From contig DASXVO010000035.1 in NCBI GenBank assembly GCA_036504215.1, positions 62,001 through 126,000 of the forward strand: a stretch of 64,000 nucleotides of DNA. The letters run 5' to 3'. The stretch comes from Vicinamibacterales bacterium. Its GTDB lineage: Bacteria; Acidobacteriota; Vicinamibacteria; Vicinamibacterales; Fen-181. Below are positions 27,443 through 48,990 of this stretch, piece by piece. The notes under the pieces are model-generated. The model had not been told where the DNA came from. It did not search any database and was given only the letters and a program-made list of their open reading frames with translations. Within the stretch, counting starts at the first letter, position 1; each line of letters starts with the position of its first letter. A program made the position numbers and the translations under genes.

Positions 27443-27775
27443 ATGCCGAAGAAACCCGACAACCTGCAAGGCGCACTCGACCTGTTGATCCTCAAGACCC
27501 TCGCCTCGCGCGGCCCGCTCCACGGGTACGGCATCGCCCTCCACGTCGAGTCGGTATCAGGCGATGTGCTGCGAATGGAGGAGGGGTCGCTGTACCCGGC
27601 ACTCCACCGGATGGAGCTGGCCGGATGGGTTCGATCGAACTGGCGGACGTCGGAGAACAACCGCCGCGCGAAGTTCTACGGCATCACCGCCTCGGGATCG
27701 AGGCAACTGGCCGACGAAGAGCGCAACTGGCGCCTCGTCGTGGGTGCGATTTCTCGAGTACTCCAGGTCACGTAG
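27443..27775 (+). CDS. PadR family transcriptional regulator
   Basis: A 110-residue winged-helix regulator: LQGALDLLILKTLASRGPLH, GYGIALHVE, MEEGSLYPALHRMELAGWVR and RRAKFYGITASGSRQLADEE are the classic PadR segments, and the C-terminal helix is short as in the PadR-s1 subtype. It begins 32 bp after a candidate operator and ends 7 nt before the ADOP permease gene. The padR-ADOP pairing is a recurrent acidobacterial arrangement in which PadR is presumed to regulate the permease; its ligand is unknown. Confidence 0.94.
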   Translation: MPKKPDNLQGALDLLILKTLASRGPLHGYGIALHVESVSGDVLRMEEGSLYPALHRMELAGWVRSNWRTSENNRRAKFYGITASGSRQLADEERNWRLVVGAISRVLQVT

Positions 27776-27782
27776 GACAGCC

Positions 27783-30476
27783 ATGTGGATCCAACGACTG
27801 CTCGCAACGTTTCGCCTCGGCCGCCTCGACCGCGATCTGGACGAGGAGATGCGCTTCCACATCGACATGCGCGCGCAGGCCTACGAGCGTGAGGGCCTGT
27901 CACCAGCGGACGCCCGTCGCAAGGCACTGCGTCGATTCGGCAGCCCCCTGCTGATGCGGGAACGCGTGCGCGACGCGCGCCTCCTGACGTGGCTCGAGAG
28001 CGTGCGGCAGGATCTCTGGCTGGGCCTGCGACTGCTCCGTCGCTCGCCGGCCCTGACGGTCGCGGCCATCCTGTCGCTTGGCCTCGCGATTGGCGGGACG
28101 ACGGGCGTCTTCGCGGTTGGCGACGGCTTGCTGATCCGGCCGCTGCCCGTACAGCGACCCGAGGAACTGGTGGTCCCGCAGTGGCACTCGACCGAGTGGC
28201 CGAAGATCGGGATCTGGGGCTCGAACGACGACGACAACAACTCGTGGTCGTTCTCGTACGCGATGTACGAGCAATTCGCGAAAACGCCAGGGGTCGACCT
28301 GGCTGGCTTCCAGGAGTTGAACAGCGCCATCACCCTGATCCGGGGCGGGGCGGGAACCGCGGATGGCTCGCTCGTGACGGGCAACTTCTTCCGGGTGCTC
28401 GGCGTGACGCCGGCCGTCGGCCGGTTGTTCGTCGACGGGGACAACTCGCTCGCTTCGCCGCCGACGATCGTCCTCAGCCATCGGTTCTGGCAGAAGGTGT
28501 TTGGCAGCGATCCGGGCGCCATCGGCGCCGCCATGCGTGTCAACGGCCAGACGTTCACCGTCGTCGGGGTGGCTCCGAAGCCGTTCTTCGGCATGCAGCC
28601 CGGACGGTGGTCGGACTTTTACGTTCCGGCGTGCTGGATCGCGAAGCTCATGCCGGAGTTCGTCAAGGAATCCCCGCTGACGACCGACCACTTCTGGTGG
28701 CTGCAACTGGTGGGGCGCCCCAAGCCGGGCGCGACGACCGCGGCACTCAAGGCCTCGCTTGGCGCGCAGTTCGCCGCGATGGTCAAGCCGCTCATCACCG
28801 AGCCGAAGCAGCACGCGACGTTCGGACTGCGGACTGGCGATCGGGGATTTGCCTTTCAGAACGCAGACAGCGTGAAGCCGTTTACGATCCTGATGACACT
28901 CGTCGTCCTGGTCCTGCTGATCGCGTGCTCGAACGTCGCCAACCTTCTCCTTGCGCGTGGCGCGGCCCGCCGCAAGGAGGCGGCGATGCGTCTCGCGCTC
29001 GGCGCGGGGCGGCTGCGGCTGGTGCGACAGCACCTCACCGAGAGCCTGATGCTGGCACTCATCAGCGGCGCCGGCGGTTTCCTCTTCGCCCGCTGGTTCG
29101 CCGCCGCGATGCTGTCGCTCGCGCCCGAGAGGTCGGCACTCGTCCTCGACCTCGGGTTCAGTTGGCGGGTTCTGGCCTTCAACCTGGCCGTCGCCGTTGG
29201 CGCCGGGCTCCTGGTCGGCCTCGCTCCGGCCATAGCCTTGTCGCGATCGTCGATTGCCACCGCGCTCCGGGCGGGCACGACGGTGCGGCCGGGCTGGAGA
29301 CAGCGGCTGGGACTGGGCCGACCGCTCGTAGCCGTGCAGATCGCGCTGTCGCTGCTGTTGCTGGTCGTGGCGGGCCTGTTCGTGCGCAGCCTGGGGAATC
29401 TGCAGGCAGTGCCGCTCGGCTTCAATCCCGACGGCATCGTCCTCTTCTCGCTCGATCCGACGTCCGGCGGCTACTCCGATGCGCAAAAGGCCCAGGCGAC
29501 CGAGCGAGTGGCGGCCCGACTGACGCGGCTTCCGAACGTCACCGCGGTGACCTGGTCGACGTTCGCGCTGGTGGACAACATCAGCTGGAACACCACCGTG
29601 CGGGTGGTGGGTCAGCCGGCAGCCAAGCGACCGCCGTGCAACCTGCTCAGCGTCGGCCCGGGGTTTCATCGAACCCTGCAGGTTCCGCTGGTGGCGGGAC
29701 GGACCTTCGACGCGCGCGACGGCGCGACGGCGCCAAGAGTCGCCATTGTCAACCAGTCGTTCGTGGCGAAGTACCTCGGAGGCACGAGGCCGCTCGGCCA
29801 GTCGTTCACGGTCGAACTCGAACGGGACCCCGTTGCGTTCGAGATCGTGGGCGTGGTGCGCGACACCAAGTACGCGCGGCTTCGTCGTCCCGAATCACCC
29901 ATCGCCTTCCTGTCCGACGCGCAGCACGCGCTCCCGATGGGGCCGACCTTTGCGATGAAGGTCACCGGGGATCCGGGACGATTGTCGGCCGACATCACGC
30001 GGGTCGTGCACGAACTGGAGCCGACGCTGCCGGTCACGCGGATCAGGACGTACCGGGAACAGATTGCGCAGCAACTGTCGATGGAACGGAGCCTGTCGAC
30101 GCTATCGTCGGCGTTCGGTGTGGTGGCCCTGCTGCTGGCGGCGGTCGGTCTCTACGGCGTCGTCGCTTTCGCGGTCGCGCGGCGGACGGGAGAGATGGGA
30201 GTCAGGCTGGCACTCGGGGCGAGCCGGGGTGCCGTGTTGCGCCTGGTGCTGCTGGACAGCGCGAAGGTCGTGGTCCCGGGAGCGTGCGTGGGGATGGCTG
30301 CAGCGCTTGCGGCGACCCGGTTCGTCGAGTCGATTCTCTTCGGACTGAAGCCGACCGACCCGGTCACGATCGTGGCTTCGGTGGCGCTGCTGCTGGCGGT
30401 GGCGGGAGTCGCAGCCTACGTCCCGGCGCGTCGTGCAGCCGGGATCAATCCGGTCGAGGCACTGCGCTGCGAATAG
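27783..30476 (+). CDS. ADOP-type MacB/FtsX-like ABC transporter permease
   Basis: An 897-residue permease of the acidobacterial duplicated orphan permease type. A cytoplasmic N-terminal extension (RLDRDLDEEMRFHIDMRAQA, about residues 12-75) is followed by two copies of a MacB periplasmic-core plus FtsX permease unit: first TM near residues 92-114, central FtsX helices from about 360 (FTILMTLVVLVLLIACSNVA, LLLARGAARRKEAAMRLALG), a second core, and C-terminal helices ending YVPARRAAGINPVEALRCE. No ATPase gene is next to it, as usual for ADOPs. It is 7 nt behind padR and probably co-transcribed. Substrate unknown. Confidence 0.92.
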   Translation: MWIQRLLATFRLGRLDRDLDEEMRFHIDMRAQAYEREGLSPADARRKALRRFGSPLLMRERVRDARLLTWLESVRQDLWLGLRLLRRSPALTVAAILSLGLAIGGTTGVFAVGDGLLIRPLPVQRPEELVVPQWHSTEWPKIGIWGSNDDDNNSWSFSYAMYEQFAKTPGVDLAGFQELNSAITLIRGGAGTADGSLVTGNFFRVLGVTPAVGRLFVDGDNSLASPPTIVLSHRFWQKVFGSDPGAIGAAMRVNGQTFTVVGVAPKPFFGMQPGRWSDFYVPACWIAKLMPEFVKESPLTTDHFWWLQLVGRPKPGATTAALKASLGAQFAAMVKPLITEPKQHATFGLRTGDRGFAFQNADSVKPFTILMTLVVLVLLIACSNVANLLLARGAARRKEAAMRLALGAGRLRLVRQHLTESLMLALISGAGGFLFARWFAAAMLSLAPERSALVLDLGFSWRVLAFNLAVAVGAGLLVGLAPAIALSRSSIATALRAGTTVRPGWRQRLGLGRPLVAVQIALSLLLLVVAGLFVRSLGNLQAVPLGFNPDGIVLFSLDPTSGGYSDAQKAQATERVAARLTRLPNVTAVTWSTFALVDNISWNTTVRVVGQPAAKRPPCNLLSVGPGFHRTLQVPLVAGRTFDARDGATAPRVAIVNQSFVAKYLGGTRPLGQSFTVELERDPVAFEIVGVVRDTKYARLRRPESPIAFLSDAQHALPMGPTFAMKVTGDPGRLSADITRVVHELEPTLPVTRIRTYREQIAQQLSMERSLSTLSSAFGVVALLLAAVGLYGVVAFAVARRTGEMGVRLALGASRGAVLRLVLLDSAKVVVPGACVGMAAALAATRFVESILFGLKPTDPVTIVASVALLLAVAGVAAYVPARRAAGINPVEALRCE

Positions 30477-30546: not shown

Positions 30547-31656
30547 ATGCCCCCCAGTTCCCGCCCTGGCGGCCTTGCGGCCTCAGGAACACCGGTGTCC
30601 CTCATTGCGGTCGGGACCGCGCTGCCTCCACACTGCATCTCCCAACGAGACGCGCTCGCCTGGGGGCTCGATCACGTGCAGCTCAGCGACGAGGCCCGGG
30701 CTCTCTATACGCGGGTCATGGCCGACGAGGGGATCCGGACGCGACATTTCGCGTTCGACGATCTCAGCGATCTGCTCGACACCGACCACGAGCGGGTGCT
30801 CGCGCGCTTCGAGCGGTGGGCGACGCGGCTGTCTACCGCAGCCCTGTCCGGCGCTCTCGCCAAGGCGGCGCTGAAGCCGACAGACGTCGACTTCCTTGCA
30901 GCCACCACGTGCACGGGGTATCTCTGCCCGGGCCTGAGTTCCTACATCATCGAGCAGGCCGGCCTGCGTGCCGATGTCCGGTGCGCCGATCTGACCGGCA
31001 TGGGATGCGGCGCCGCGGTCCCGGCGCTCGAGCGCGCGTGCGAGTTCCTGGCGGCGCACCCGGCCGCGACGGCCGCGGTCGTCTCCACCGAGATCTGCAG
31101 CGCCGCGGTGTTTCTCGGCAACGAGCCCGAGCTGGTGATCTCGAACGCGATCTTCGGCGACGGCTCGGCGGCGGCGATTCTACGGCGCGCCGATCGAGGG
31201 ACGCGGTCCGGCGACGAGCGGCGGCCGAGGTTCGTGGGATTCCGTTCGCTGACCTTGCCGGCGTGGCGTGAGGCGCTGCGGTTCAGGACCGAAGGCGGGC
31301 ACCTTCGCAACGTCCTCAGCCGGGACGTGCCGATCCGCGCCGGCCGCGCGTGCCGACGTCTGGTTGGAGAACTGCTGGCCGAACACGACACGGCGCCTGA
31401 GACCGTGGCGCACTGGATGGTGCACGCGGGCGGCCGCCTCGTGCTCGATGCGATCGAGCGAGCCCTCGAACTGCCGGTCGACGCGCTGGATGCCGCTCGC
31501 GCCGTGATGCGCACGTCGGGCAACCTGTCGTCCCCCTCGGTGCTGTTCGTGCTCGACGAAGAACAGCGGCGCCATCCTCCACAGAACGGCGACCTCGGCG
31601 TCATCTGCGCCTTCGGTGCAGGCTTTGCCGCGCACGCGGCGCTTGTCGAGTACTGA
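30547..31656 (+). CDS. Type III polyketide synthase (chalcone/stilbene synthase family)
   Basis: A 369-residue homodimeric-type ketosynthase that condenses a starter acyl-CoA with malonyl-CoA. The catalytic triad is intact: C154 in DLTGMGCGAAVPALERA, H293 in WMVHAGGRLVLDA and N326 in RTSGNLSSPSVLFVL. The spacings (139 and 33 residues) equal those of plant chalcone synthase Cys164-His303-Asn336. The usual HPGG is HAGG. FGDGSAAAIL is also present. The ATG at 30547 is chosen because the upstream frame overlaps the permease gene. Two coupled genes follow (methyltransferase, flavoprotein), so the product is probably a methylated and oxidised alkylresorcinol/quinone or pyrone; the exact product cannot be told from sequence. 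Confidence 0.93.
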   Translation: MPPSSRPGGLAASGTPVSLIAVGTALPPHCISQRDALAWGLDHVQLSDEARALYTRVMADEGIRTRHFAFDDLSDLLDTDHERVLARFERWATRLSTAALSGALAKAALKPTDVDFLAATTCTGYLCPGLSSYIIEQAGLRADVRCADLTGMGCGAAVPALERACEFLAAHPAATAAVVSTEICSAAVFLGNEPELVISNAIFGDGSAAAILRRADRGTRSGDERRPRFVGFRSLTLPAWREALRFRTEGGHLRNVLSRDVPIRAGRACRRLVGELLAEHDTAPETVAHWMVHAGGRLVLDAIERALELPVDALDAARAVMRTSGNLSSPSVLFVLDEEQRRHPPQNGDLGVICAFGAGFAAHAALVEY

Positions 31657-32412
31657 ATGTCCGGGGCGCGGTTCGATCAGTTCGTCCGGCGTCGTCTCGA
31701 CCTCGTCGCGCGGGCCACTGGCGAAGAACTCATGGACTCGAACCAGTGGCCGGCGCCCGTGGTCCGGAAGACGCTCCGTTTCCTGGAACTCACGAACCGC
31801 TGCTTTGGTGGCGCCGCGGTCGTTCTCCGGCGGTTCGTCTCATGGCACGGGCAGCGCGCATTTACCGCCTCCCTTCGAATCCTCGACGTCGGGACCGGTG
31901 GCGCCGACGTACCGGTCGCGCTGATCAACTGGGCACGCCCCCTCGGTCTCGACCTGCGGGTGACGGCCATTGACAGTGCCCCGGACATCGTCGAGGCCGC
32001 TCGCGCGCGGGTGAGCCGCGTTCCTGAGATCACCGTCGAACGATGCAGTCTCTTCGACCTCGCGGCGAGCGGGCGCCGGTTCGACATCGTCGTCGCGTCC
32101 CTGTTCCTCCATCACGTGCCGCCGTCGCGCACCCCGGACGCGCTCCGTGCAATCGATCGGCTGGCCGTGCGGGGCGTCATCATCAGCGACCTCATGCGAT
32201 CGCCCGTGGCGCTCGTCGCCGTCGGAGCGCTGGCCCTCGTCGCGGGCAACCACGTCGTCCGACACGATGGCCCCCTGTCGGTTCGGCGTGCGTTCACCGT
32301 GGACGAACTCGAACAGCTGGCGTCCAACACGGGGCTTACGTATCTGGCGGCCGAACGCGAGGGTCCGTTCCGCGTCAGCCTTTCGGGACAGAAGGATCTG
32401 CTCCGTGCGTGA
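31657..32412 (+). CDS. Class I SAM-dependent methyltransferase of the PKS cluster
   Basis: A 251-residue methyltransferase with motif I LRILDVGTGGADVPVAL, the acidic strand-2 end VTAIDSAPDIVEAARARV, and a post-motif FDIVVASLFLHHVPPSRTPD. The C-terminal part has a hydrophobic stretch (VALVAVGALALVAGNHVV) that may contact a lipid substrate or membrane. The ATG follows the PKS stop immediately (TGAATG), and the next gene begins inside its 3' end, so the three genes are coupled. It likely O- or C-methylates the polyketide. Confidence 0.88.
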   Translation: MSGARFDQFVRRRLDLVARATGEELMDSNQWPAPVVRKTLRFLELTNRCFGGAAVVLRRFVSWHGQRAFTASLRILDVGTGGADVPVALINWARPLGLDLRVTAIDSAPDIVEAARARVSRVPEITVERCSLFDLAASGRRFDIVVASLFLHHVPPSRTPDALRAIDRLAVRGVIISDLMRSPVALVAVGALALVAGNHVVRHDGPLSVRRAFTVDELEQLASNTGLTYLAAEREGPFRVSLSGQKDLLRA

Positions 32413-33511
32413 GGTGCTCGTCGTCGGCGCCGGCCCCGCTGGACTGAGCGCCGGTCTCGCGCTGCTCCGCGCGGGGTGTGCCGCCACCATCATCGAGCAG
32501 CACGCGTCGCCGCCGCCTCGCGTGTGTGGCGCGTTCATCAATCCCGAGGGGACGCGGCATCTCGCGTCGCTGCAGGTGTTGGAGGATGTGGTGGCGGCAG
32601 GGGCCGTGCCGGTGACCGCGGCTCGTGTGACCTCGCCGAACGGCCGCGAGGCGGTCGTGCCAATTGTCCGCGGCGGTCTTGGTGGCCTCGCGGTGCCGCG
32701 TCCGGTGCTCGAGCAGACACTCGCCGAAGCGTTCATTCGTCGCGGCGGCGCGATTCGCTGGAACGCCCGGGCGACGGCCGCGCGCCGCGTCTCGGTGGGC
32801 TGGCGACTGACGTGGCGCGAACAGGGGAGTGAACGGGAGCTCGACGGCGCGTGTCTTGTCGTCGCCGACGGGCGGTATTCGTCGCTCTCCGGGCGCCCGC
32901 GCGCGAGACCCGTCGCCGGGTGGTTTGGCTGGAATGCGCTATTCAACGGAGTGCCAGCCGCCCCTGGCACTCTCTCGCTGCACTTCTACCGGTCCGGCTA
33001 CGTTGGCGTTCTGACGTTCGCCGACGGCTCGACGAACGTTTGCGGACTGACGTGTGACCGCATGGTCGGAGCGACGGGGTGGGATGAGGTTTACGCGGCC
33101 GCCATCGACAGGCAGCGGGTGCTTGCACGGTTGCTGAGTGGAGCGCGGCGCGTCACGCCATTTCGCGGTGTTGGTCCCTTGCCGTTCTCGCGCGCGATGT
33201 GGCCTTCCGCCGGACGTGTGCTCGCGGGGGATGCCGCGGCGGTCGGCGATCCGTATCTGGGAGAGGGTATCAGCCGCGCGCTCGGAACCGGACCGGCGTT
33301 GCTGCCGAGCCTCGCTGCCTGGGCCGATCATCCTGACGCCGACGCCATCGCTGCGTCGTATTCACGGGAGTGGCGTGCGCGCTACCGGGCGAGGCTGCGG
33401 CTCGGCGGTGTGTCCCGCGCCGTGCTCGCACGGCCACGTCTGCTCTCGGCCGTTCTTGCGCTGGCGCGCCCGAGCGTGCTCCGCGTGCTGCTGTCGGTCG
33501 CGCACCGATAG
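32405..33511 (+). CDS. FAD-dependent oxidoreductase (geranylgeranyl-reductase/PHBH-like) of the PKS cluster
   Basis: A 368-residue flavoprotein with the N-terminal dinucleotide motif VLVVGAGPAGLSAGLALLRA, the early CGAFINPEG segment, and the second FAD motif AGRVLAGDAAAVGDPYLGEG (GD). The starting GTG at 32405 is inferred because the fold begins at once and no ATG fits; it overlaps the methyltransferase gene by 8 nt. In alkylresorcinol pathways such as Streptomyces srsABC a type III PKS, a methyltransferase and a flavin hydroxylase act in sequence to give alkylquinones, and the same order occurs here. A reductase role on unsaturated side chains is the alternative. Confidence 0.88.
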   Translation: MREVLVVGAGPAGLSAGLALLRAGCAATIIEQHASPPPRVCGAFINPEGTRHLASLQVLEDVVAAGAVPVTAARVTSPNGREAVVPIVRGGLGGLAVPRPVLEQTLAEAFIRRGGAIRWNARATAARRVSVGWRLTWREQGSERELDGACLVVADGRYSSLSGRPRARPVAGWFGWNALFNGVPAAPGTLSLHFYRSGYVGVLTFADGSTNVCGLTCDRMVGATGWDEVYAAAIDRQRVLARLLSGARRVTPFRGVGPLPFSRAMWPSAGRVLAGDAAAVGDPYLGEGISRALGTGPALLPSLAAWADHPDADAIAASYSREWRARYRARLRLGGVSRAVLARPRLLSAVLALARPSVLRVLLSVAHR

Positions 33512-34298: not shown

Positions 34299-36710
34299 TC
34301 ACTCGTACCGCAACGCGACCAACGGCTCGATCCGGCTCGCCGTTCGGGCCGGAATGTAGGTTGCCAGGGCCGCCGTCGCCATGAGGACGACGATCATGCC
34401 GCCGAACGTGACCGGGTCGAACGGACTGACGTGGTAGAGCTGATTGGCCAGCAGCGCGCTAATCACGGCCGCACCGGCGGCGCCCGCGGCGATGCCGGCG
34501 CCGGCCAGGCCAAGCCCCTGGCCGAGCACCAGCTTCAGGACCGATGCCCGATCGGCACCGAGGGCCATCCGGAGTCCGATCTCCTGCGTTCGACGCGCAA
34601 CCGCGTAGCTGACGACCCCGTACAGACCCAGCGCGGCCATCAGCAGCGCGACCAGGGCAAAGGCGATCAGCACGCGAACGACGAAACGCCGCGGCGCCAG
34701 CGACTCGTTCACGCGCTCGCTCATCGTGGCCGCCCGCTGCACGGCCAGCGTCGGTGCCAGGCCTCGGACGGCCGACTCGACGATGGCGGTCGATTCCGGG
34801 GCGCCGTCCTTCAGGCGCACGACGAGCCACGCACCCAGACGGGGCCGCTGGTACAGGCATTGGTAGAACGTCCCCTTGTCGGTCTCTCCCACCAGCGTCG
34901 AGTGCAGCACGTGTCCCACGACGCCCACGATCGTCATCCATTTCTCGCCGTTCCGAATGCGACGACCGATCGGATCCTGACCGGGCCAGTAGCGACGGGC
35001 CAGGTTCTCATCGATCACCGTGACGAACTCGGTGCCGATTCGATCGTCGTCGGTGAACACGCGGCCCGTGCGCACCGGGATCCCGAGAGCGGTGAAGTAC
35101 TCGGGAGAAACGACGCGCGTTCGACCGTGCGGTCCCGGGTCGCCCGGCGGCCGCGTCTCGCCTTCGATCGAGAAGGACGAGGACGAATCGCCGCTGTTGA
35201 AGGGCAGCGGCGTCCCCGCGCCGGCCGTGAGCACCGACGGCGACTGGCGGATCCGGTCGATGAGCGCCCGGAAGAACGCCGCGCGCTCCTCGGGCGCGGC
35301 GTAGCGCTTCTCCGGGAGCGACACTCCGCCCAGGACCACGCCCCGGGTCACGAATCCAGGATCGATGTGCTGGATCTGAATGAGACTCCGGATCAGGAGT
35401 GCGGCGCCGACGAGCAGGATCATCGCGAGCGACGTCTCTGCCACGACGAGCACCGACCGGAGCCGGCCGCGCCCGCCGGTCGACGTGCGCGACGAGCCCT
35501 TCAACTGCTCGGCGGCGGCTACTTGCGTGACCTGCCAGGCCGGCGCCAGCGCGAAGAGGAACGCGGCCACGACGGCCGTGACGGCGGCGAATCCGAGCAC
35601 GCGAAGATCGACGGACGCCTGCAGGCCGACGACGGAGCCCTTTGGCGCCACGGCGAGCAGAACCCGCATGACGATGGACGCGAGCAGGATTCCCAGCGCG
35701 GTGCCCGCGATCGAGAGCACCAGACATTCGGCGACGGTATGGCGGAGCAGTTGCCAGCGCCCGGCACCGAGGGCCACCCGGACGGCGATCTCCCGGCTCC
35801 GGCCCGTCGTGCGCGCCAGCATCAGTCCGGCGATGTTGGCGCAGGCAATGAGGAGAACGAACCCCACGGCGCCGAGCAGGACCAGCATCGGCTGCCTGGT
35901 GTCGCCCGCGGTGAAATCGGTGAACGCGATCGCGAACATGCCCCAGCGCGATCCCTTTGCAAAGGCGGCGTTCTCGTCGGTTCCGCCCTTGAGGCGGTCC
36001 GCGACCGTCCGGACCCTCGCATCTGCTGTGGCGAGCGACACGCCCGGCCTGCTCCGGGCGACAGCGAACAGGTGCTCATTGAATCGGTAGTCCTCGGTGA
36101 ATTCCGCTGCCGGCAGCGCCAGCGGCACCCAGGCGTCCACTTCCTGCGGCCAGCGGAAGCCCTCCGGCATCACGCCGACGATCTTCGTCGACCGTTCATC
36201 GAGTGTGACTGTGCGGCCGACCACGCTCGCGTCACCCCCGAAGATCCGAACCCAGGCGGCATGCGACAGCACGACGACCGGGGTGGCATTGGGCAGGTCC
36301 TCCTCGGCGACGAATGCGCGTCCCAGCGCCGGGCGGACCTTGAACACATCGAACCATTCGAGCGACACCTTGGCAGCCTGCAGGATCTTCGACTCACCGG
36401 CACCCGAGTAGATCAGCTCGGCCGGCTCCATCGCTGCCGTGTGCTCGAAGACATCGCGGCTGGCCTTCACGTCCCGAAAATCCGGGCCCGAAAGGCCGAT
36501 ACTCGCCAGGTTGAGCTTGGCATACATCGCCCGGACCGCCACGACGCGCGATGGGTCCGATACCCCGGGCGGAGCCAGCAGTGTCTGGTTGATCAGGCCG
36601 AAGATCGCCGAGTTGGCTCCAATGCCGAGCGCGAGCACGGCCACGACGGTGACGCTGAACACGGGATTCGCACCCAGTGCGCGTAGCGCGATTCGCAGGT
36701 CGGCAGCCAT
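34299..36710 (-). CDS. ADOP-type MacB/FtsX-like ABC transporter permease (short form)
   Basis: An 803-residue duplicated permease like the one at 27783, but starting directly at the first membrane helix (LRIALRALGANPVFSVTVVA) and lacking the ~80-residue cytoplasmic N-terminal extension. It has MacB core segments (FDVFKVRPALGRAFVAEEDL), FtsX helices (LLGAVGFVLLIACANIAGLM, LARTTGRSREIAVRVALGAG), a second unit, and the end YIPARTASRIEPLVALRYE. No PadR or ATPase gene adjoins it; upstream lies a repeat array. Substrate unknown. Confidence 0.92.
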   Translation of the reverse strand: MAADLRIALRALGANPVFSVTVVAVLALGIGANSAIFGLINQTLLAPPGVSDPSRVVAVRAMYAKLNLASIGLSGPDFRDVKASRDVFEHTAAMEPAELIYSGAGESKILQAAKVSLEWFDVFKVRPALGRAFVAEEDLPNATPVVVLSHAAWVRIFGGDASVVGRTVTLDERSTKIVGVMPEGFRWPQEVDAWVPLALPAAEFTEDYRFNEHLFAVARSRPGVSLATADARVRTVADRLKGGTDENAAFAKGSRWGMFAIAFTDFTAGDTRQPMLVLLGAVGFVLLIACANIAGLMLARTTGRSREIAVRVALGAGRWQLLRHTVAECLVLSIAGTALGILLASIVMRVLLAVAPKGSVVGLQASVDLRVLGFAAVTAVVAAFLFALAPAWQVTQVAAAEQLKGSSRTSTGGRGRLRSVLVVAETSLAMILLVGAALLIRSLIQIQHIDPGFVTRGVVLGGVSLPEKRYAAPEERAAFFRALIDRIRQSPSVLTAGAGTPLPFNSGDSSSSFSIEGETRPPGDPGPHGRTRVVSPEYFTALGIPVRTGRVFTDDDRIGTEFVTVIDENLARRYWPGQDPIGRRIRNGEKWMTIVGVVGHVLHSTLVGETDKGTFYQCLYQRPRLGAWLVVRLKDGAPESTAIVESAVRGLAPTLAVQRAATMSERVNESLAPRRFVVRVLIAFALVALLMAALGLYGVVSYAVARRTQEIGLRMALGADRASVLKLVLGQGLGLAGAGIAAGAAGAAVISALLANQLYHVSPFDPVTFGGMIVVLMATAALATYIPARTASRIEPLVALRYE

Positions 36711-40728: not shown

Positions 40729-43700
40729 CTATTTGATCTCTTTCATCAACGCTGCGACGGCGGCTTCGAGTTGTTCGTCCTTGCCCTTCGCCGCCAGTTC
40801 GTAGGTGTTCATCAGCTTGATATCCGGCTCGGTCTGCTGGTTCTCGAGGTATTTGCCGGTGGTGGAATCCTTGACGCCGGTGTGCGGGACGCCCCAGCGG
40901 AGCCCGTCCGCCAGCGCCTCCCACCCGGCGAAGGTGCAGGTGCCCGGCGTCGGCATCCCAACCAGCTTCCCGAGATGGAGTGCCTTCACGGTGTAGGCGT
41001 AGCAGTGGCCATCGCTGTAGTTGGCCTCGTTCGCCAGCGAGATGCTGGGCTTCGTCCAGCGGAAGTTCGGCTCGTATCCGTTGGCGCGTCTGTCGCTCGT
41101 ATAGTCGAAGAACTTCTTCCCGCTCAGGAACATTGCCAGGTCGGCGACGAGGTCGCCTCCGCCGTTGAACCGGGTGTCGACGACAATGCCCTTGCGGAGC
41201 GCGAACTTGCCCATCACCTCTTCGTAGGCCGTGCGGTACGCGCCGTCGTTCATGCCGGGCACGTGGATGTAGCCGAGTTGCCCGTTGCTCAGCCGATCGA
41301 CCTCGTCCTGATTGCGGCGCACCCATCGGGTGTAGAGCAGCCGGTTCTCCGCCCCGGGGCTGATCGGTTTGACGACGACGTCGAACTTCTTGTCGCCGTC
41401 GGCGATGCGCACCAGGGTCTTCTTGCCCGCCTTGCGGTTCAGGTAGCGCGCCAGGTCCCTGTCGGCCGCGATCGTCTCCCCGTCGATCGCCTCGACGATC
41501 ATCCCGGGGCGTACCACGATGTCGGCCTTGTTCAAGGGGCCGTCCTTGATGACGTCTTCGATCTTGTAGCCGACGCCCCGGTACGTCTGATCGAAGAACA
41601 CGCCGAGCGACGCGGTTTCGTCTGCATTGGCGACCTGCGGGGTGAAGGTCGCGCCGCTGTGGCTGATGTTCAGTTCGCCCAGCATCTCCGCGAGCATCTC
41701 GGCGAATTCGAAGTTGTTCCCGATGTGCGGCAGATATTTCTGGTAGACGGTCTTCAGGGCATCCCAGTCGGCGCCGTGGTACCCGGCGGTGTAGAACCCG
41801 TCCTTCACGGTGCGCCACACGTGATCGAACGACTCCTTGCGCTCGGCGGCCTGGTCCAGCACCATCTCGCCGTTGATGCTCACGGGGTCGCGCTTGGCGG
41901 TGGCGGGATCGATCTTCGAGATACTGCCGTCAGCGAGCAGGAAGAGGTTCTTCTGCTCCTTGTCCCACGCCAGGCTGCCGCCGTTGGTGTTCAAGGCGAC
42001 GAGCATCTTGGTTTCCTGCGTGCGGAGGTTGGTGGACCAGAGGTTCTGGCCCTTCTCGAAGCGCGCCAGGTAGTACAGGGTCTCGCCGTCCTTGCTCGCC
42101 AGGGCGTCGCCGAGCGATGACGAGTGGACGGTCAGGCGGGCCTTGCGGATCTCGATGCCGTCGAGGTCGATCACCAGGTCTTCGACCTTCGGCTCCTTGT
42201 CCTTCGCCGCCGCGTCCTTCTTCGCCGCGTCGGCCTTCTCCTTCTCCTTCTTGTCCTCGGCTTCCTTGACGAGCGCGTACTCTTCCTTCGTCATGCGGTA
42301 TCGGTCCCACGCCTCCTGCGTGAAGAACATCCCGTAGACGTCGGCCTGCGCGCCGCCGCTCTGTGCCACCGACTTGAGGCCGTCACGATTGCTGAACCAC
42401 AGCATCGCCTTGCCGCCGAGGATCCACTTCGGCCGCGAGTCGTTGAACCCGCTCTTGGTCAGATTGACGACCGGGCTCTTGCCGTCGGCGCGCACGAGGC
42501 CGACCTCGCCGGGCGCGAAGCCCGGCACGGACAGGTCGAACAGGATCCACTTGCTGTCGGGGCTCCACTGGAAGTACTGCTCGCCTTCGTCCAGGTCGTT
42601 GCTCGTCAGGAGGCCCCGGGTCTGCTTGGTGTCGAGCGTGTAGATCTTGAGCGTCGAGTGATCCTCGACGTAGGCCACCTCCTTCCCGTCCGGCGAGAAC
42701 CGTGGCTGGGTGTTCTGGTGGGTGTTGACGATGAGCGGCGTCTCCTCGAGCACCGTGGACGCGTAGAAGTACGGCTCCTCGTCGCGGGTCCGTCGTGTTT
42801 CGTAGATCCCCCAGCGGCCGCCGCGTTCCGAGGCGTAGACGATGGCCTTGCCGTCGGGCGAGAAGACGACGCTGCGTTCCTGGTCGGGGGTGTTGGTGAC
42901 GCGCTTGGTCACGCTGCCCTCGACGCTCGTGACGAACACCTCCCCGCGGACGGTGAACGCCACTTCCTTGCCGGACGGGGCCACCACCATCTCACGGGCG
43001 TTGCCGTTCACCGGCAGCACCCGTTCGTTGTTGGCCCTGGCGTCCGCCGCGATGGCCACCGCGACTTTCTGCGGCTGGCCGCCGGTCTTCATCGTGTAGA
43101 CGCTGCCGTCGTAGCCGAAGCACAGGACGCCGGTGTCCGACAGGCTGAGGAAGCGGACCGGCACCTGCTTGAACGACGTTACCTGTTGCGACTTGCCTCC
43201 GACCAGGCTCATCTTCTGCACGTTGAACGAGCCACTCTCCTCGCTCAGGTAGAAGAACGCGGTGTCGCCGTCGGTCAGTACCGGGCTCCGGTCCTCACCA
43301 GCGAACGTCGTGATCTTCTTGTGCGTTCCGGTCTTGAGGTCGTAGGTCCAAATGTCGCGCGTGATGGCCGACGTGTGGTGCTTGCGCCAGATGTTCTCGC
43401 CGCCCTTCTTGTCCTGGTAGATCAGGAACTGACCGTTGCGGCTCATCTTCACGTCCTCGGCCGGCGTCGTCAGCACCTGCTCCGCGCGTCCGCCCGTCAC
43501 GGGCACGCGATAGAGTTCAGGCTGGGAGCCGGTCGGGAACTCGCGATTGCTGGCGGTATCCATGCGGGCAGCGCCGAACAGGATGGCCTTGTCATCCGGC
43601 GTGAAGGCGTAGGGATACTCTGGCGCCGAGTGGAAGGTGAGGCGCCGGGCTTCACCGCCCTCGGCGGGCATCACGAAGACGTCGAAGTTCCCGAAGCGAT

Positions 43701-43959
43701 CGCTGGCGAACGCGATCTGCTTGCCGTCGTGGCTCCACACCGGCATGAAGTCCTGGGCGTCGTGCGTGGTCAGCTGCAGGGCCGCGCCTCCGGCGGAGGG
43801 CACGCGGTAGAGATCCCCCTTGTACGTGAAGACGATGGTCTTCCCATCCGGCGAGATTGCGGGATACCGCAACCAACTGGGCGTCGTCTGCGCCGTAGCG
43901 GCCGACGCGCCCGCCAGAATCAGAACGCCAATCACCAGGGCATGGATAGTGTTTTTCAT
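40729..43959 (-). CDS. Tricorn-like S41 peptidase with WD/TolB propeller and PDZ domain
   Basis: A 1076-residue exported protease. From the ATG at 43959: signal peptide (KNTIHALVIGVLILAGASAA, ending TAQ), TolB-like beta-propeller repeats (WLRYPAISPDGKTIVFTYKG, PVWSHDGKQIAFASDR, VVFSPDGKAIVYASER, PRFSPDGKEVAYVEDH), a charged Lys/Ala/Asp stretch (about residues 570-600), a C1-like helical domain, a PDZ domain (near 790-870) and an S41 domain with GIVVDTRFNGGGDLVADLAM and NYSDGHCYAY (near 980), where the family's catalytic Ser lies. The start at 43992 would merely lengthen the signal region. Probably degrades peptides in the periplasm. First gene of the S41-SIS-GH31 operon. Confidence 0.9.
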   Translation of the reverse strand: MKNTIHALVIGVLILAGASAATAQTTPSWLRYPAISPDGKTIVFTYKGDLYRVPSAGGAALQLTTHDAQDFMPVWSHDGKQIAFASDRFGNFDVFVMPAEGGEARRLTFHSAPEYPYAFTPDDKAILFGAARMDTASNREFPTGSQPELYRVPVTGGRAEQVLTTPAEDVKMSRNGQFLIYQDKKGGENIWRKHHTSAITRDIWTYDLKTGTHKKITTFAGEDRSPVLTDGDTAFFYLSEESGSFNVQKMSLVGGKSQQVTSFKQVPVRFLSLSDTGVLCFGYDGSVYTMKTGGQPQKVAVAIAADARANNERVLPVNGNAREMVVAPSGKEVAFTVRGEVFVTSVEGSVTKRVTNTPDQERSVVFSPDGKAIVYASERGGRWGIYETRRTRDEEPYFYASTVLEETPLIVNTHQNTQPRFSPDGKEVAYVEDHSTLKIYTLDTKQTRGLLTSNDLDEGEQYFQWSPDSKWILFDLSVPGFAPGEVGLVRADGKSPVVNLTKSGFNDSRPKWILGGKAMLWFSNRDGLKSVAQSGGAQADVYGMFFTQEAWDRYRMTKEEYALVKEAEDKKEKEKADAAKKDAAAKDKEPKVEDLVIDLDGIEIRKARLTVHSSSLGDALASKDGETLYYLARFEKGQNLWSTNLRTQETKMLVALNTNGGSLAWDKEQKNLFLLADGSISKIDPATAKRDPVSINGEMVLDQAAERKESFDHVWRTVKDGFYTAGYHGADWDALKTVYQKYLPHIGNNFEFAEMLAEMLGELNISHSGATFTPQVANADETASLGVFFDQTYRGVGYKIEDVIKDGPLNKADIVVRPGMIVEAIDGETIAADRDLARYLNRKAGKKTLVRIADGDKKFDVVVKPISPGAENRLLYTRWVRRNQDEVDRLSNGQLGYIHVPGMNDGAYRTAYEEVMGKFALRKGIVVDTRFNGGGDLVADLAMFLSGKKFFDYTSDRRANGYEPNFRWTKPSISLANEANYSDGHCYAYTVKALHLGKLVGMPTPGTCTFAGWEALADGLRWGVPHTGVKDSTTGKYLENQQTEPDIKLMNTYELAAKGKDEQLEAAVAALMKEIK

Positions 43960-44031
43960 AGGGCAAGCTGCTTCATGGACGAGGCGGGCCACTCCGAGGG
44001 CAGGGCGATTCTATCAAGAATACGGACAGAC

Positions 44032-44091: not shown

Positions 44092-45260
44092 TACTGGCTC
44101 GTCGCCAGCATCTCCAGCGCCACGCGCGTCATCAGGCTGACGCCTATCGGAAGCACTCGCTCGTCGAGGTCGAAGCGGGCGTTGTGGTGGGGGTAGGGAC
44201 GGTCGGTACCTGTACCCAGCATGACGAATGCGCCCTGCACGTGCTGCAGGTAGTAGGCGAAGTCCTCGCCGCCCATCACCGGCAGCATCGTGGCCACCTG
44301 TTGGTCACCGAACTCACGCAGCGCGACGCGCCCGACGAGATCGACCATCCGACCATCGTTGACGAGCGGGGGATACCCTTCGACGTAGGTGAACGCTGCG
44401 GTTGCGCCGAAGACCTGAGCGGTCCGCTCGCAGACCTCCTGAAGTCGTTGTCTTGCCAGGCGCTGCACGGCCAGGTCGAGCGTGCGCACGGTGCCGGTCA
44501 GCGTCACCGTGTTCGGGATGATGTTGTGCACCGTGCCGCCGTGCACCGTCGTGAAGGAGACGACAACCGCCTGGAGCGGATCGACGGACCGGCTCGCGAT
44601 CGACTGGGCCGCCACCACGATGTGGGACGCGACCAGGACGGGATCGATGGTCAGGTGCGGCTGTGAGGCGTGGCCTCCGCGACCCGTGATGACAACCTCG
44701 AACGTGTCGGACTGCGCCATCATTGCGCCCTTGCACAGGCCGACCAAGCCGGTGGGCAGCGGCTGCCAGAGGTGCAGGCCGAACACGCGGTCCACGCCTT
44801 CCAGGGCGCCCTCGTCGATCATTCGCCTCGCGCCGCCCGGCGGGTTCTCTTCCGACGGCTGGAATAGGAAGACGACGGTGCCGGCGAGCGACGCGCGATG
44901 AGCGGCGAGCGTTGTCGCTGCGCCCATGAGAATAGCCATGTGGCCGTCGTGACCGCACGCGTGCATGGTACCCGGCGTGGCCGACCGGTAGTCGTGCTCA
45001 TTCTCCTCGGCGACCGGCAGGCCGTCCATGTCCGCGCGCAGCGCCACCGTCGGCCCGGGCATGCCGCCCGTCAGGACACCGCGGAGTCCGGTACCTCCGC
45101 ACGCCCGCACGTCGATTCCACAGCCTTCGAGAAACGTCCGGATTACGGCCGACGTGCGATGTTCCTGAAACGCCAGTTCCGGATGGCGGTGGAAATCGCG
45201 TCGCCAGTCGACGAGCGACGGAGCGAGCGCGTCGATGTCCCGGTTCAGGTCCGCAGTCAT
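44091..45260 (-). CDS. M20 family amidohydrolase/carboxypeptidase
   Basis: From the Met at 45260 the domain is 389 residues and complete: DWRRDFHRHPELAFQEHRTS, ALRADMDGLPV, metal ligands in MHACGHDGHMAILMGAA, the catalytic Glu pair in FQPSEENPPGGA, HLWQPLPTG, the dimerisation domain from SDTFEVVITGRGGHASQPH, and PVMGGEDFAYYLQ with PHHNARFD. This is the group of N-acyl-amino-acid, hippurate or IAA-amino-acid hydrolases. The reading frame continues upstream without a stop into a symporter remnant (45261-45521), so translation may also start at 45521 and give a membrane-anchored form. Which start is used is not decidable here. Confidence 0.9.
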   Translation of the reverse strand: MTADLNRDIDALAPSLVDWRRDFHRHPELAFQEHRTSAVIRTFLEGCGIDVRACGGTGLRGVLTGGMPGPTVALRADMDGLPVAEENEHDYRSATPGTMHACGHDGHMAILMGAATTLAAHRASLAGTVVFLFQPSEENPPGGARRMIDEGALEGVDRVFGLHLWQPLPTGLVGLCKGAMMAQSDTFEVVITGRGGHASQPHLTIDPVLVASHIVVAAQSIASRSVDPLQAVVVSFTTVHGGTVHNIIPNTVTLTGTVRTLDLAVQRLARQRLQEVCERTAQVFGATAAFTYVEGYPPLVNDGRMVDLVGRVALREFGDQQVATMLPVMGGEDFAYYLQHVQGAFVMLGTGTDRPYPHHNARFDLDERVLPIGVSLMTRVALEMLATSQ

Positions 45261-45521
45261 TGGGCTCGAGACGGTCAAGATGACGTTGACCGCCAGCGCC
45301 ACGAATCCGGCGTTCAATCCCAGGAACGGATCGTGCCTCGACCAGATGAGCGAGACGACGACGACCCCGCCGGCCATCAGCAGCCAGACGAGCAGCACGC
45401 CGAAGCGCCGTCCGCCGACGCTCCATCGTTCGAGGTTCATCTCTCCCCGTCCGCGGCCCACGAGGCCTACAACCGTCGCGGCGACGACCATGAAGACGAT
45501 GACCGCGAGCGACGTCGTCAT
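45261..45521 (-). pseudogene. Collapsed sodium:solute symporter, fused in frame to the M20 gene
   Basis: The 87 codons before the M20 domain read like the two ends of an SSF symporter joined together. The first ~52 residues (AVIVFMVVAATVVGLVGRGR, LERWSVGGRRFGVLLVWLLM) match the N-terminus of MctP-like symporters, where the consensus continues GG(D/E)xYTxxTF. Here it jumps after AGG to VVVVSLIWSRHDPFLGLNAG and FVALAVNVILTV, which resembles the final helix of the same family. About 400 intervening residues are missing. The upstream DUF3311 gene, the usual symporter partner, supports this reading. An alternative is a genuine two-helix membrane anchor for the amidohydrolase. Confidence 0.65.
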
Positions 45522-45700
45522 CGGCCCGCTCCGTCAGCCGCGTGGTCGCGACGATTCCGCAGCAGGAGCATGTGAGCGATCGCAAGGAACGCCGGGGTGG
45601 CCAGGACCCAGCCGAGGATCCAACACAGGAGGAACGGCGGACCTGCGACGAGCGCAAGAATCGGTCCGGAGGCGAACAGCAGCGCGAGTGTCAATCGCAT
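45518..45700 (-). CDS. DUF3311 small membrane protein
   Basis: A 60-residue protein with two hydrophobic segments (LTLALLFASGPILALVAG and PFLLCWILGWVLATPAFLAI) and a basic C-terminus. The PFLLxWILxWVLxTP core is typical of DUF3311 proteins, which are almost always encoded directly before a sodium:solute symporter. Here its stop overlaps the start of the symporter remnant by 4 nt. Presumed to have lost its partner. Confidence 0.72.
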   Translation of the reverse strand: MRLTLALLFASGPILALVAGPPFLLCWILGWVLATPAFLAIAHMLLLRNRRDHAADGAGR

Positions 45701-45867
45701 ACCTCTCCTTCCGCAGATGGTTCTCCGTTCCCGCGGCTGCCGTCAAGCCGAATTGGCTGGGGACCGAGCGCTGGCGCTGCGGGGGATTGCGGCCGCGGCG
45801 ACGTTGGGGGACAATCGGCGCCACCGAGGCGCACCGACGAGCGGGGTGGGCGGACAACGGAGCGGAC

Positions 45868-48800
45868 ATGAAGAGACCGATGGCGTGTGGTTGTCTGATT
45901 CTGGGCGCGCTGTTGGCGGCCCAGAGCGGATGGGCGGCCCCGGCGGCGAAGGCCACGGTGCGCGAGTACAAGAAGGTGTTTCGCACCTATCCGTATTCGG
46001 ACCCGAATCCCATCGCGGTGGTCGGACGCATCTATCCGTACTACCGCTTCGATGGCTACACCGACCAGCCGATCGACAAGGAGTGGACCGTCGTCGAACT
46101 CGAGAACGACTATCTCAAGGTCATGATCCTGCCGGAGATCGGCGGAAAGATCTGGACGGCCATCGAGAAATCCACCGGGCGGTCCTTCATCTACAACAAC
46201 CACGTCGTCAAGTTCCGCGACATCGCCATGCGGGGCCCGTGGACGAGTGGCGGCATCGAACCGAACTACGGAATCATCGGCCACACGCCCAACTGCGCCA
46301 CGCCGGCGGACTACCTCACGCGGACGACGGCCGACGGCAGCGCGCAGGCCGTCATCGGCGTGCTCGACCTGCTCACGCGCACCCCCTGGCGCCTCGAGGT
46401 GACGCTCGGGCCCGACACCGCCTACTTCACGACGCGATCGTTCTGGTACAACGCGACGCCCATCGAACAGCCGTACTACTCCTGGATGAACGCCGGCATC
46501 AAGGCGGCGGGCAACCTCGAATTGATCTACCCGGGGACCCACCACCTCGGCCACGAGGGTGAATTCGCGCCATGGCCGGTCCATCCCGGCAACGGGAAGA
46601 ACCTGGCGTTCTACGAGCAGAACGACTTCGGTTCCTACAAGTCCTACCACGTGTTCGGCCGGCACTCGGAGTTCTTCGGTGCGTACTGGCACGACGATGA
46701 CTTCGGGATGGGCCGGTATGCGAGGCGCGACGAGAAGCTCGGGAAGAAGGCGTGGATCTGGGGCCTGTCGCGCCAGGGCATGATCTGGGAGCATCTGCTG
46801 ACCGACACCGACGGGCAATACGTCGAGGTGCAGTCGGGGCGGTTGTTCAACCAGGCGGCCGAGCGCAGCACGGCAACGCCCTTCAAGCACCGCGGATTCG
46901 CCCCGTATTCCGCGGACGCGTGGACGGAGTACTGGTTCCCGGTCAAGGCCACGCACGGGTTCGTGCAGGCCAACGAGTTCGGCGCGCTGAACGTCGAGCG
47001 CGCGCCTGGCGGTGCCTTGACGCTGTGGTTCTCGCCGTTGCAGGCCCTCACCGACACGCTCGAGGTGTTCGACGGCGAGAAGGTGGTCTACTCGACGCGC
47101 CTCGCGCTGAAACCGATGCAGACCTGGTCGCAGGCAATTGTGTCGGTCCCGGTCGATCGGCTGCGGGTGGTCGTGAGCGCCGCCCGGATCGACTATCGCG
47201 CTACGGGCGGCGACGAGATCTCGAGGCCGATCGAGTCGCCAAAGGACTTCGACTGGGCGTCGGTGTTCGGCCTGCACCTGACGGGGAAGGAGTGGATGCG
47301 TCAGCGCGAGTACGGGCAGGCGGAGGCGGCGCTCGAGGCGTGCCTGCGCAAGGACCCGAACTACGCGCCCGCGCTCGTCGATCTCGCCATCGTGAGATAC
47401 CGGGCGCTCGACTACCAGGCGGCGTGGACGCTCGCGCGCAAGGCGCTCGCGATCGACACCTACGATCCGGCGGCCAACTACTACTACGCACTGGCCGCGC
47501 TTGCGCTGGGGAAGCGCATCGACGCGATGGACGGGTTCGAAGTCGCCGCGCAGTCACCGGAACTCCGCACGGCCGCATGGATCGAGCTCGCCAAGATGTC
47601 CTTCCGCCAGGGGGACCGGCGGCGCGCGGCGGAGTACGCGGCCGACGTCGTGGCCCGGGATGCCATGAACGTGGACGGGTACCTGCTGCTCGCCCTGTCG
47701 AAGCGGCTGTCCGGCGATCGCGACGCCGCGACCGCGGCGCTCGCGTCAGCCATCGCCCTCGATCCCCTCAACCAGGCCGTCCGATTCGAGCGGTACCTGG
47801 CGGCCGGTGACGAGGCCAGCCGGCTGTCGTTCGTGAACGGCATCCGCAACGAGATGCCGCAGGAGACATACCTCGAGCTGGCTGCGTGGTACCACGCTCT
47901 CGGACGGTCACAGGAGGCGGCCCGACTCCTGGCGCTGGCACCGGCGACAGCGGAGACTCTGTACTGGCTCGCCTTCATCCAGCACGAACAGGGTGACGCC
48001 GGTTTCCGCGAGGCGCTCGGTCGTGCCGACGCCGCCACCCCCGACCTCGTCTTCCCGTTCCGGGCGGAGAGTGCACCGGTGCTGCGGTGGGCCGTCACGG
48101 AAAGCGCCAGTTGGCGGCCGAAGTACTATCTGGCGCTGCTCGTCTGGAGCCGCGAGGACCTGGACGGCGCGCGCGCCCTGCTCCGGGATTGCGGTGAGGC
48201 TCCGGACTGGGCGCCGTTCTACGCGACGCGATCCAAGGTGTGGGACGCGTCAGCGCGCAACCGTGCCCTCGCGGATCTGGAACATGCGGCCGGCCTCGAC
48301 CCACGTCAGTGGCGCTACGGCCGGCTGCTGGCCGAACATCATCTCGCGGACAGGCGGTTCGACCGGGCGCTCGAGGTCGCCGCGCGGTACCATCGCATGT
48401 TGCCCGGACAATACATCCTCGGCATGCTCCATGCGAAATGCCTGCTGTTCAGCGGAAAGTACGCCGATGCCAGCGACGCCCTTGCGGCGGTGCGCGTCCT
48501 CCCGTACGAAGGTGCGACCGAAGGACGGGCGCTCCATCGGGAAGCGCAGCTCATGCTCGCGGTGGGGGAGTTCCGGGCGGGCCGTGTCGACGCGGCGCGG
48601 CGTCGGATTGCCAGCGCGCGCGAGTGGCCGGAGAACCTCGGCGCCGGGAGGCCCTATCCCTCGGAGGTCGACGAGCGTCTCGAAGACTGGCTCGACGCGC
48701 GATGTCTCGACAAGGTCGGCACCAGATCCCGGCCGCTGGCGGGTCCGGCCGAGGCACCGGCAGGAGCTCGGCGCCTGGGGATCGGCACCCTGTTGACGGC

Positions 48801-48990
48801 GATCGACGCGAAGGCGCGAGGGCGTCAGGCGGACGCGCAGGAGCATCTGGGCGTCTGGGTGTCTCAGCAGCCAGATGCTCGGGTGGCCGAGTGGGGACGA
48901 CGACTGTTCGAGGGCCAGCTCACCGCCTGGCCTGACGGTGCGGCGTCCACCGAGGAGCATCGTGTGCTGCTGGCCTGGATGAGCCGCTGA
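45868..48990 (+). CDS. Secreted DUF5107 protein with TPR repeats
   Basis: A 1040-residue protein with a signal peptide (MACGCLILGALLAAQSGWAA) and an N-terminal DUF5107 domain (about 40-420; YPYYRFDGYTDQPIDKEWTV, ENDYLKVMILPEIGGKIWTA, WNATPIEQPYYSWMNAGIKA-like core). DUF5107 resembles the aldose-epimerase/galactose-mutarotase beta-sandwich and is found with carbohydrate genes; its activity is unknown. The rest is TPR helices (KEWMRQREYGQAEAALEACL, PNYAPALVDLAIVRYRALDY and several degenerate repeats). The ATG at 45868 is chosen for the signal peptide; the frame is open 630 bp upstream only as an antisense shadow of the M20 locus. Probably acts in the envelope. Confidence 0.87.
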   Translation: MKRPMACGCLILGALLAAQSGWAAPAAKATVREYKKVFRTYPYSDPNPIAVVGRIYPYYRFDGYTDQPIDKEWTVVELENDYLKVMILPEIGGKIWTAIEKSTGRSFIYNNHVVKFRDIAMRGPWTSGGIEPNYGIIGHTPNCATPADYLTRTTADGSAQAVIGVLDLLTRTPWRLEVTLGPDTAYFTTRSFWYNATPIEQPYYSWMNAGIKAAGNLELIYPGTHHLGHEGEFAPWPVHPGNGKNLAFYEQNDFGSYKSYHVFGRHSEFFGAYWHDDDFGMGRYARRDEKLGKKAWIWGLSRQGMIWEHLLTDTDGQYVEVQSGRLFNQAAERSTATPFKHRGFAPYSADAWTEYWFPVKATHGFVQANEFGALNVERAPGGALTLWFSPLQALTDTLEVFDGEKVVYSTRLALKPMQTWSQAIVSVPVDRLRVVVSAARIDYRATGGDEISRPIESPKDFDWASVFGLHLTGKEWMRQREYGQAEAALEACLRKDPNYAPALVDLAIVRYRALDYQAAWTLARKALAIDTYDPAANYYYALAALALGKRIDAMDGFEVAAQSPELRTAAWIELAKMSFRQGDRRRAAEYAADVVARDAMNVDGYLLLALSKRLSGDRDAATAALASAIALDPLNQAVRFERYLAAGDEASRLSFVNGIRNEMPQETYLELAAWYHALGRSQEAARLLALAPATAETLYWLAFIQHEQGDAGFREALGRADAATPDLVFPFRAESAPVLRWAVTESASWRPKYYLALLVWSREDLDGARALLRDCGEAPDWAPFYATRSKVWDASARNRALADLEHAAGLDPRQWRYGRLLAEHHLADRRFDRALEVAARYHRMLPGQYILGMLHAKCLLFSGKYADASDALAAVRVLPYEGATEGRALHREAQLMLAVGEFRAGRVDAARRRIASAREWPENLGAGRPYPSEVDERLEDWLDARCLDKVGTRSRPLAGPAEAPAGARRLGIGTLLTAIDAKARGRQADAQEHLGVWVSQQPDARVAEWGRRLFEGQLTAWPDGAASTEEHRVLLAWMSR

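Follow-up and report, generated by a model that had tools for sequence, protein, structure and literature searches.

What does a compact cluster of a type III polyketide synthase (PKS), a methyltransferase (MT) and a flavoprotein make in a Vicinamibacterales bacterium, an acidobacterium of soil type, and is such a trio peculiar to the Acidobacteria? The genes lie in a 64,000-nucleotide stretch of contig DASXVO010000035.1, referred to here as the window. An earlier note, made from the sequence alone, had delimited three open reading frames and described them as coupled, first through a TGAATG junction and then through an overlap of 8 nt, and both the coordinates and the coupling were confirmed in the sequence:

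30547..31656, + strand: type III PKS gene (369 aa), of a branch on the side of DpgA (3,5-dihydroxyphenylacetyl-CoA synthase)
31654..31659, + strand: PKS-MT stop/start junction TGAATG, the PKS TGA lying directly next to the MT ATG
31657..32412, + strand: class I SAM-dependent MT gene (251 aa), PRK06202-like, below the cut-off of that model
32405..32412, + strand: MT-FAD gene overlap of 8 nt, the MT stop lying over the GTG start of the FAD gene
32405..33511, + strand: FAD_binding_3-superfamily oxidoreductase gene (FAD gene; 368 aa; GTG start), a probable ring hydroxylase

Alignment to relatives from the genus backed the GTG start at 32405, and against the same relatives mismatches at the third codon position were about 1.5-3 times those at the first and second, indicating purifying selection on the trio. 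A promoter scan at the trio detected nothing, the one terminator-like site nearby was no more than shuffled sequences give, and the sole Rfam match in the surroundings was a tRNA roughly 6 kb off. On either side of the region lies a MacB/FtsX-type permease gene (27564-30476 and 34299-36710), the two being on opposite strands, with a small PadR-like ORF (27443-27775, judged by eye) ahead of the first.

Non-conservation of the trio had been named at the outset as an outcome that would count against the proposal; instead, the trio is kept in four of the five sampled members of the genus (the own genome and three relatives), with identities to the window proteins of 68-71% for the PKS, about 60% for the MT and 54-57% for the FAD protein. 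In one of these relatives (G003) the contig ends within the FAD gene, and the fifth genome (G002, 83% complete) gave no match to the trio. Across the own genome and 60 related genomes, 12 of the 13 MT matches scoring 45 bits or more had a PKS match on the same contig no further than about 5 kb away, an association beyond chance. The flanks of the trio were not conserved in the genus comparison. In one relative (L111) the trio stands between homologues of window 40.7-43.9 kb and 45.9-49.0 kb, whereas in the window both lie 7-12 kb to one side of it, so that the trio or its surroundings must have been rearranged as a unit. In the window these flank homologues are a Tricorn/S41-type protease gene (40729-43992) and a DUF5107/TPR gene (45235-48990); their DNA identity to L111 is 82% and 73% respectively, and that of the trio 69%.

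The PKS scored above the Pfam cut-offs for the FAE1_CUT1_RppA and Chal_sti_synt domains and carries a Cys154/His293/Asn326 catalytic triad, which is the same in all genus members. The triad of plant chalcone synthase (CHS) is C164/H303/N336, and the spacings of 139 and 33 residues are equal in the two enzymes, as had been observed before; domains and triad together place the protein in the type III PKS (chalcone synthase) superfamily. Cys122, a second active-site cysteine, occupies the position of Cys106 in THNS. No second type III PKS was found in the 5.9 Mb own genome, either by a Pfam chalcone-synthase search or by a P0001 search. A PKS structure predicted from four sequences of the genus had a pTM of 0.50 and was set aside as poor. 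The MT matched Methyltransf_25/11/12/23 above the Pfam cut-offs, confirming the class I assignment already made, and scored 163 bits against NCBIfam PRK06202 (cut-off 243). The FAD protein, with FAD_binding_3 (PF01494) above cut-off and GxGxxG, CG, DG and GD motifs, belongs to the FAD_binding_3 flavoprotein monooxygenase superfamily on the strength of PF01494, GxGxxG, DG and GD; its sole other match in the own genome was weak, and no close paralogue was found there.

The first comparison drawn for this locus was with srsABC of Streptomyces griseus, which shares the order PKS-MT-flavoprotein. SrsB is an isoprenylcysteine-type MT, not a class I enzyme. Pfam gave only class I domains for the window MT and no isoprenylcysteine-type carboxyl methyltransferase partner was found, so that the trio is not filed as srsABC, a comparison made by MT type with the Srs sequences outside our data. 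The difference from srsABC in MT class, already pointed out, stands, but hidABC, a planctomycetal operon and type III PKS clusters of Acetobacteraceae are better comparators. The hidABC cluster of picocyanobacteria (Cyanobium sp. LEGE 06113) encodes the same three enzyme types as the window, arranged hidC>hidA>hidB, i.e. PKS>MT>oxidoreductase (PMC8086630), and its product, hierridin B, is of the long-chain alkylresorcinol type, methylated and hydroxylated (PMC10896814). The planctomycetal PKS-MT-oxidoreductase operon is reported from 58 strains in connection with alkylresorcinols, and planctomycetal PKSs yielded pentadecyl- and heptadecylresorcinols in C. glutamicum (PMC10896814). In the Paludisphaera borealis operon (L132) the MT is homologous to that of the window (35% over 179 aa, E 2e-14), as is the FAD protein (30% over 332 aa, E 1e-11), whilst the order, MT-FAD-PKS, differs and the PKS is of another branch. 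An Acetobacteraceae (Roseomonas) cluster of PKS, MT and FAD monooxygenase has been noted with product unknown (PMC8776678); the Roseomonas cluster among our loci (L134) has the gene order and enzyme types of the window, but in the PKS, MT and FAD trees alike it stands apart as a clade of its own. The window thus has the adjacency of class I MT, FAD oxidoreductase and type III PKS genes that characterises the hidABC/planctomycetal kind.

This kind is widespread. In a profile search of 60-odd acidobacterial PKS neighbourhoods, trios occurred in the orders PKS-MT-FAD (PMF), PKS-FAD-MT (PFM) and MT-FAD-PKS (MFP), and homologous trios were also found in Planctomycetota, Deinococcota, Alpha- and Betaproteobacteria and Bacillota. 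Plasmids carry those of Paludisphaera (MT-FAD-PKS), Deinococcus, Roseomonas, Methylobacterium, Paenibacillus, Novosphingobium and Caballeronia, and in Microvirga and Microbacterium one partner gene is shortened or split. The locus was thus correctly picked out as a compact, conserved candidate pathway, but the trio kind is not peculiar to the Acidobacteria. Separate PKS, MT and FAD trees of 29 trios recovered the same main clades (window genus, MFP, alphaproteobacterial-type PMF, PFM and class-f16 PMF), indicating co-inheritance within clades; the deep order of the clades is only partly resolved, and long branches are seen for the MT of Caballeronia and for both the MT and the FAD protein of Deinococcus.

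We consider it probable (roughly 0.6) that the three genes make up a self-contained pathway of the type III PKS, class I MT and FAD oxidoreductase kind, which would make, methylate and ring-hydroxylate a phenolic polyketide. The PKS would condense an acyl starter with malonyl-CoA and cyclise the chain, with a resorcinol-type phenol as the likeliest outcome, the MT would methylate the phenol on O or C, and the flavoprotein, as a group-A-like monooxygenase, would hydroxylate the ring. The resulting hydroquinone would be methoxylated or methylated and could cycle to a quinone. We infer every one of these chemical steps, together with the starter unit, the ring type and the role of the trio, and the methylated, ring-hydroxylated phenol is proposed by analogy with the characterised alkylresorcinol members of the kind. 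Gene coupling, enzyme families, conservation in four of five genus members, recurrence of trios elsewhere and the homology of MT and FAD protein to the planctomycete operon all argue for it, as do the clades shared by the three gene trees, the alkylresorcinols made by characterised members and a structure search with the FAD model that is led by a flavoprotein monooxygenase. The product may be a membrane lipid or a redox quinone.

Against this pathway stands the position of the PKS. In an 80-row PKS tree the window genus grouped with the Caballeronia PKS (100/98 support), and the two formed, with the PKS of locus L112 and with DpgA, a nine-row clade (100/98) in which DpgA is the nearest characterised relative of the window PKS. 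The earlier note had called for a phylogeny against the ArsB, SrsA, PKS18 and RppA groups: the window PKS sits with DpgA and not with the planctomycetal, HidC-like branch, in a tree whose sequences do not include ArsB, ArsC or SrsA. Uniting the window genus with the MFP clade including the planctomycete was rejected by the AU test (p-AU 2.5e-5), for a grouping picked after the tree had been seen and with Paludisphaera and the MFP clade as proxies for the HidC-like branch, HidC itself being outside the data and so not placed directly. At CHS positions 132/137/194/197/256/265 the window PKS has C/C/C/A/F/N, the planctomycete-like and alphaproteobacterial trio clades C/A/C/H/W/M and true DpgA S/T/C/A/W/F; the window enzyme thus lacks the Trp256/Met265 pair. 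Met at position 265 is reported for HidC-clade enzymes, and Gln or Asn for the acyl-ACP-fed CylI clade (PMC8086630). We do not file the window PKS in the HidC branch, given its tree placement and the missing Met265. Trp or Phe at position 256 was dropped as a predictor of resorcinol formation, the pyrone synthase Pks11 having Trp in the same column. On this sequence evidence the window lineage is a deep, separate and uncharacterised PKS branch that differs from the HidC-like planctomycetal one. Within the phylum but beyond the genus, the closest PKS, at 41% identity, is solitary (L112:8063-9085, genome G181), adjoining an ABC exporter and having no MT or FAD partner.

Because the ring-making PKS comes from a different, uncharacterised branch, the product cannot be confidently predicted. 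The closest trio-bearing PKS outside the genus (38% identity) is that of Caballeronia sp. SBC2, on plasmid pSBC2-3 (L062:7986-12693), where the order is as in the window, followed by genes for an ACP and a beta-ketoacyl-ACP synthase (KS), i.e. PKS-MT-FAD-ACP-KS; the MT is very divergent, and both PKSs have F256, N265 and C132. The window genus and Caballeronia may tentatively be viewed, at less than even odds, as an uncharacterised DpgA-side PKS branch joined to the MT/FAD pair that would use an acyl-ACP or malonyl starter and give a new methoxylated dihydroxyphenyl class, unlike hierridins and alkylresorcinols. Starter-supply genes had been suggested as worth seeking in relatives, and besides Caballeronia a Novosphingobium trio (L135:1719-6702, MT gene on the other strand) has added KS and ACP genes; those of both genera may be there to supply a dedicated starter. 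Two acidobacterial loci (L083 and L096) likewise have KS/ACP homologues close to the PKS. The window cluster itself has no dedicated starter-supply gene, which counts against the phenol pathway, and its Asn265, taken with the Caballeronia genes, is a weak hint of an acyl-ACP starter.

DpgA is malonyl-primed, and a PKS that uses malonyl-CoA (or a short acyl-CoA) for both priming and extension would yield a small dihydroxyphenyl-acetate-type product, from which the MT and the flavoprotein would make a soluble methoxy-hydroquinone rather than a lipid. The tree grouping, the GMGC and CSAA motifs common to both enzymes and Ala at CHS position 197 favour this, as does the NCBIfam DpgA model (NF042429) being the best for the window PKS, in a library where it may be the only type III PKS model of its kind. 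The score, however, is 198.7 bits where the cut-off is 425 and true DpgAs have about 647, active-site positions 132, 137, 256 and 265 are different, dpgB, dpgC and dpgD were not found beside the gene, and the ACP and KS genes of Caballeronia, its nearest trio-bearing relative, point to an acyl starter made on ACP. With cut-off and neighbours both lacking, the window PKS is not filed as DpgA, and the DpgA loci checked were without MT/FAD partners. We regard the malonyl-primed reading as unlikely overall, although the DpgA affinity leaves a real chance of such a small product. Elsewhere in the phylum, one PKS (L113:7883-8944, genome G026) passes the DpgA cut-off (429.4 vs 425), again with dpgBCD neighbours absent; upstream of it, on the opposite strand, lies a large FAD-protein gene.

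Returning to the phenol pathway, its hydroxylation step depends on the flavoprotein, which had been described as being of geranylgeranyl-reductase type. A geranylgeranyl-reductase-like enzyme would saturate the acyl chain or the ring with no hydroxylation, which is compatible with any reading of the PKS; TIGR02032 (geranylgeranyl reductase) is indeed the top NCBIfam match, and the protein has the GDAA...GEGI and CG motifs of such enzymes. The score of 77.1 bits falls well under the cut-off of 158.8, whereas FAD_binding_3 exceeds its own, so that the label proved a loose one and the protein is not filed as a geranylgeranyl reductase. A structure search with a model of moderate quality (pTM 0.72) ranked the flavoprotein monooxygenase PhzS first, with UbiH and 3-hydroxybenzoate 6-hydroxylase within the top 20. 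Halogenases and a reductase-type structure (3oz2, TM 0.73) also fit the model well, which tells against the phenol pathway, but the best matches were mostly monooxygenases and a reductase role appears improbable.

Still more doubtful is an alkylpyrone, in which an alpha-pyrone, formed by the PKS through lactonisation of a tri- or tetraketide, would be O-methylated by the MT and modified in side chain or ring by the flavoprotein: the pyrone synthase Pks11 is the best solved-structure match to the window PKS by sequence (ArsC is not among the 60 matches listed) and work cited in PMC8776678 links alkylpyrones to myxobacterial clusters in which a type III PKS is accompanied by MT and monooxygenase, but the window PKS lies outside the Pks11 branch and the characterised related operons make resorcinols (PMC10896814).

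The trio is real and conserved, a distinct lineage within a type of gene cluster that was already known. A tailoring pair that elsewhere accompanies resorcinol-type PKSs is here combined with an uncharacterised PKS branch close to DpgA, within a three-gene module that is spread over at least five phyla and whose main clades agree across all three gene trees.
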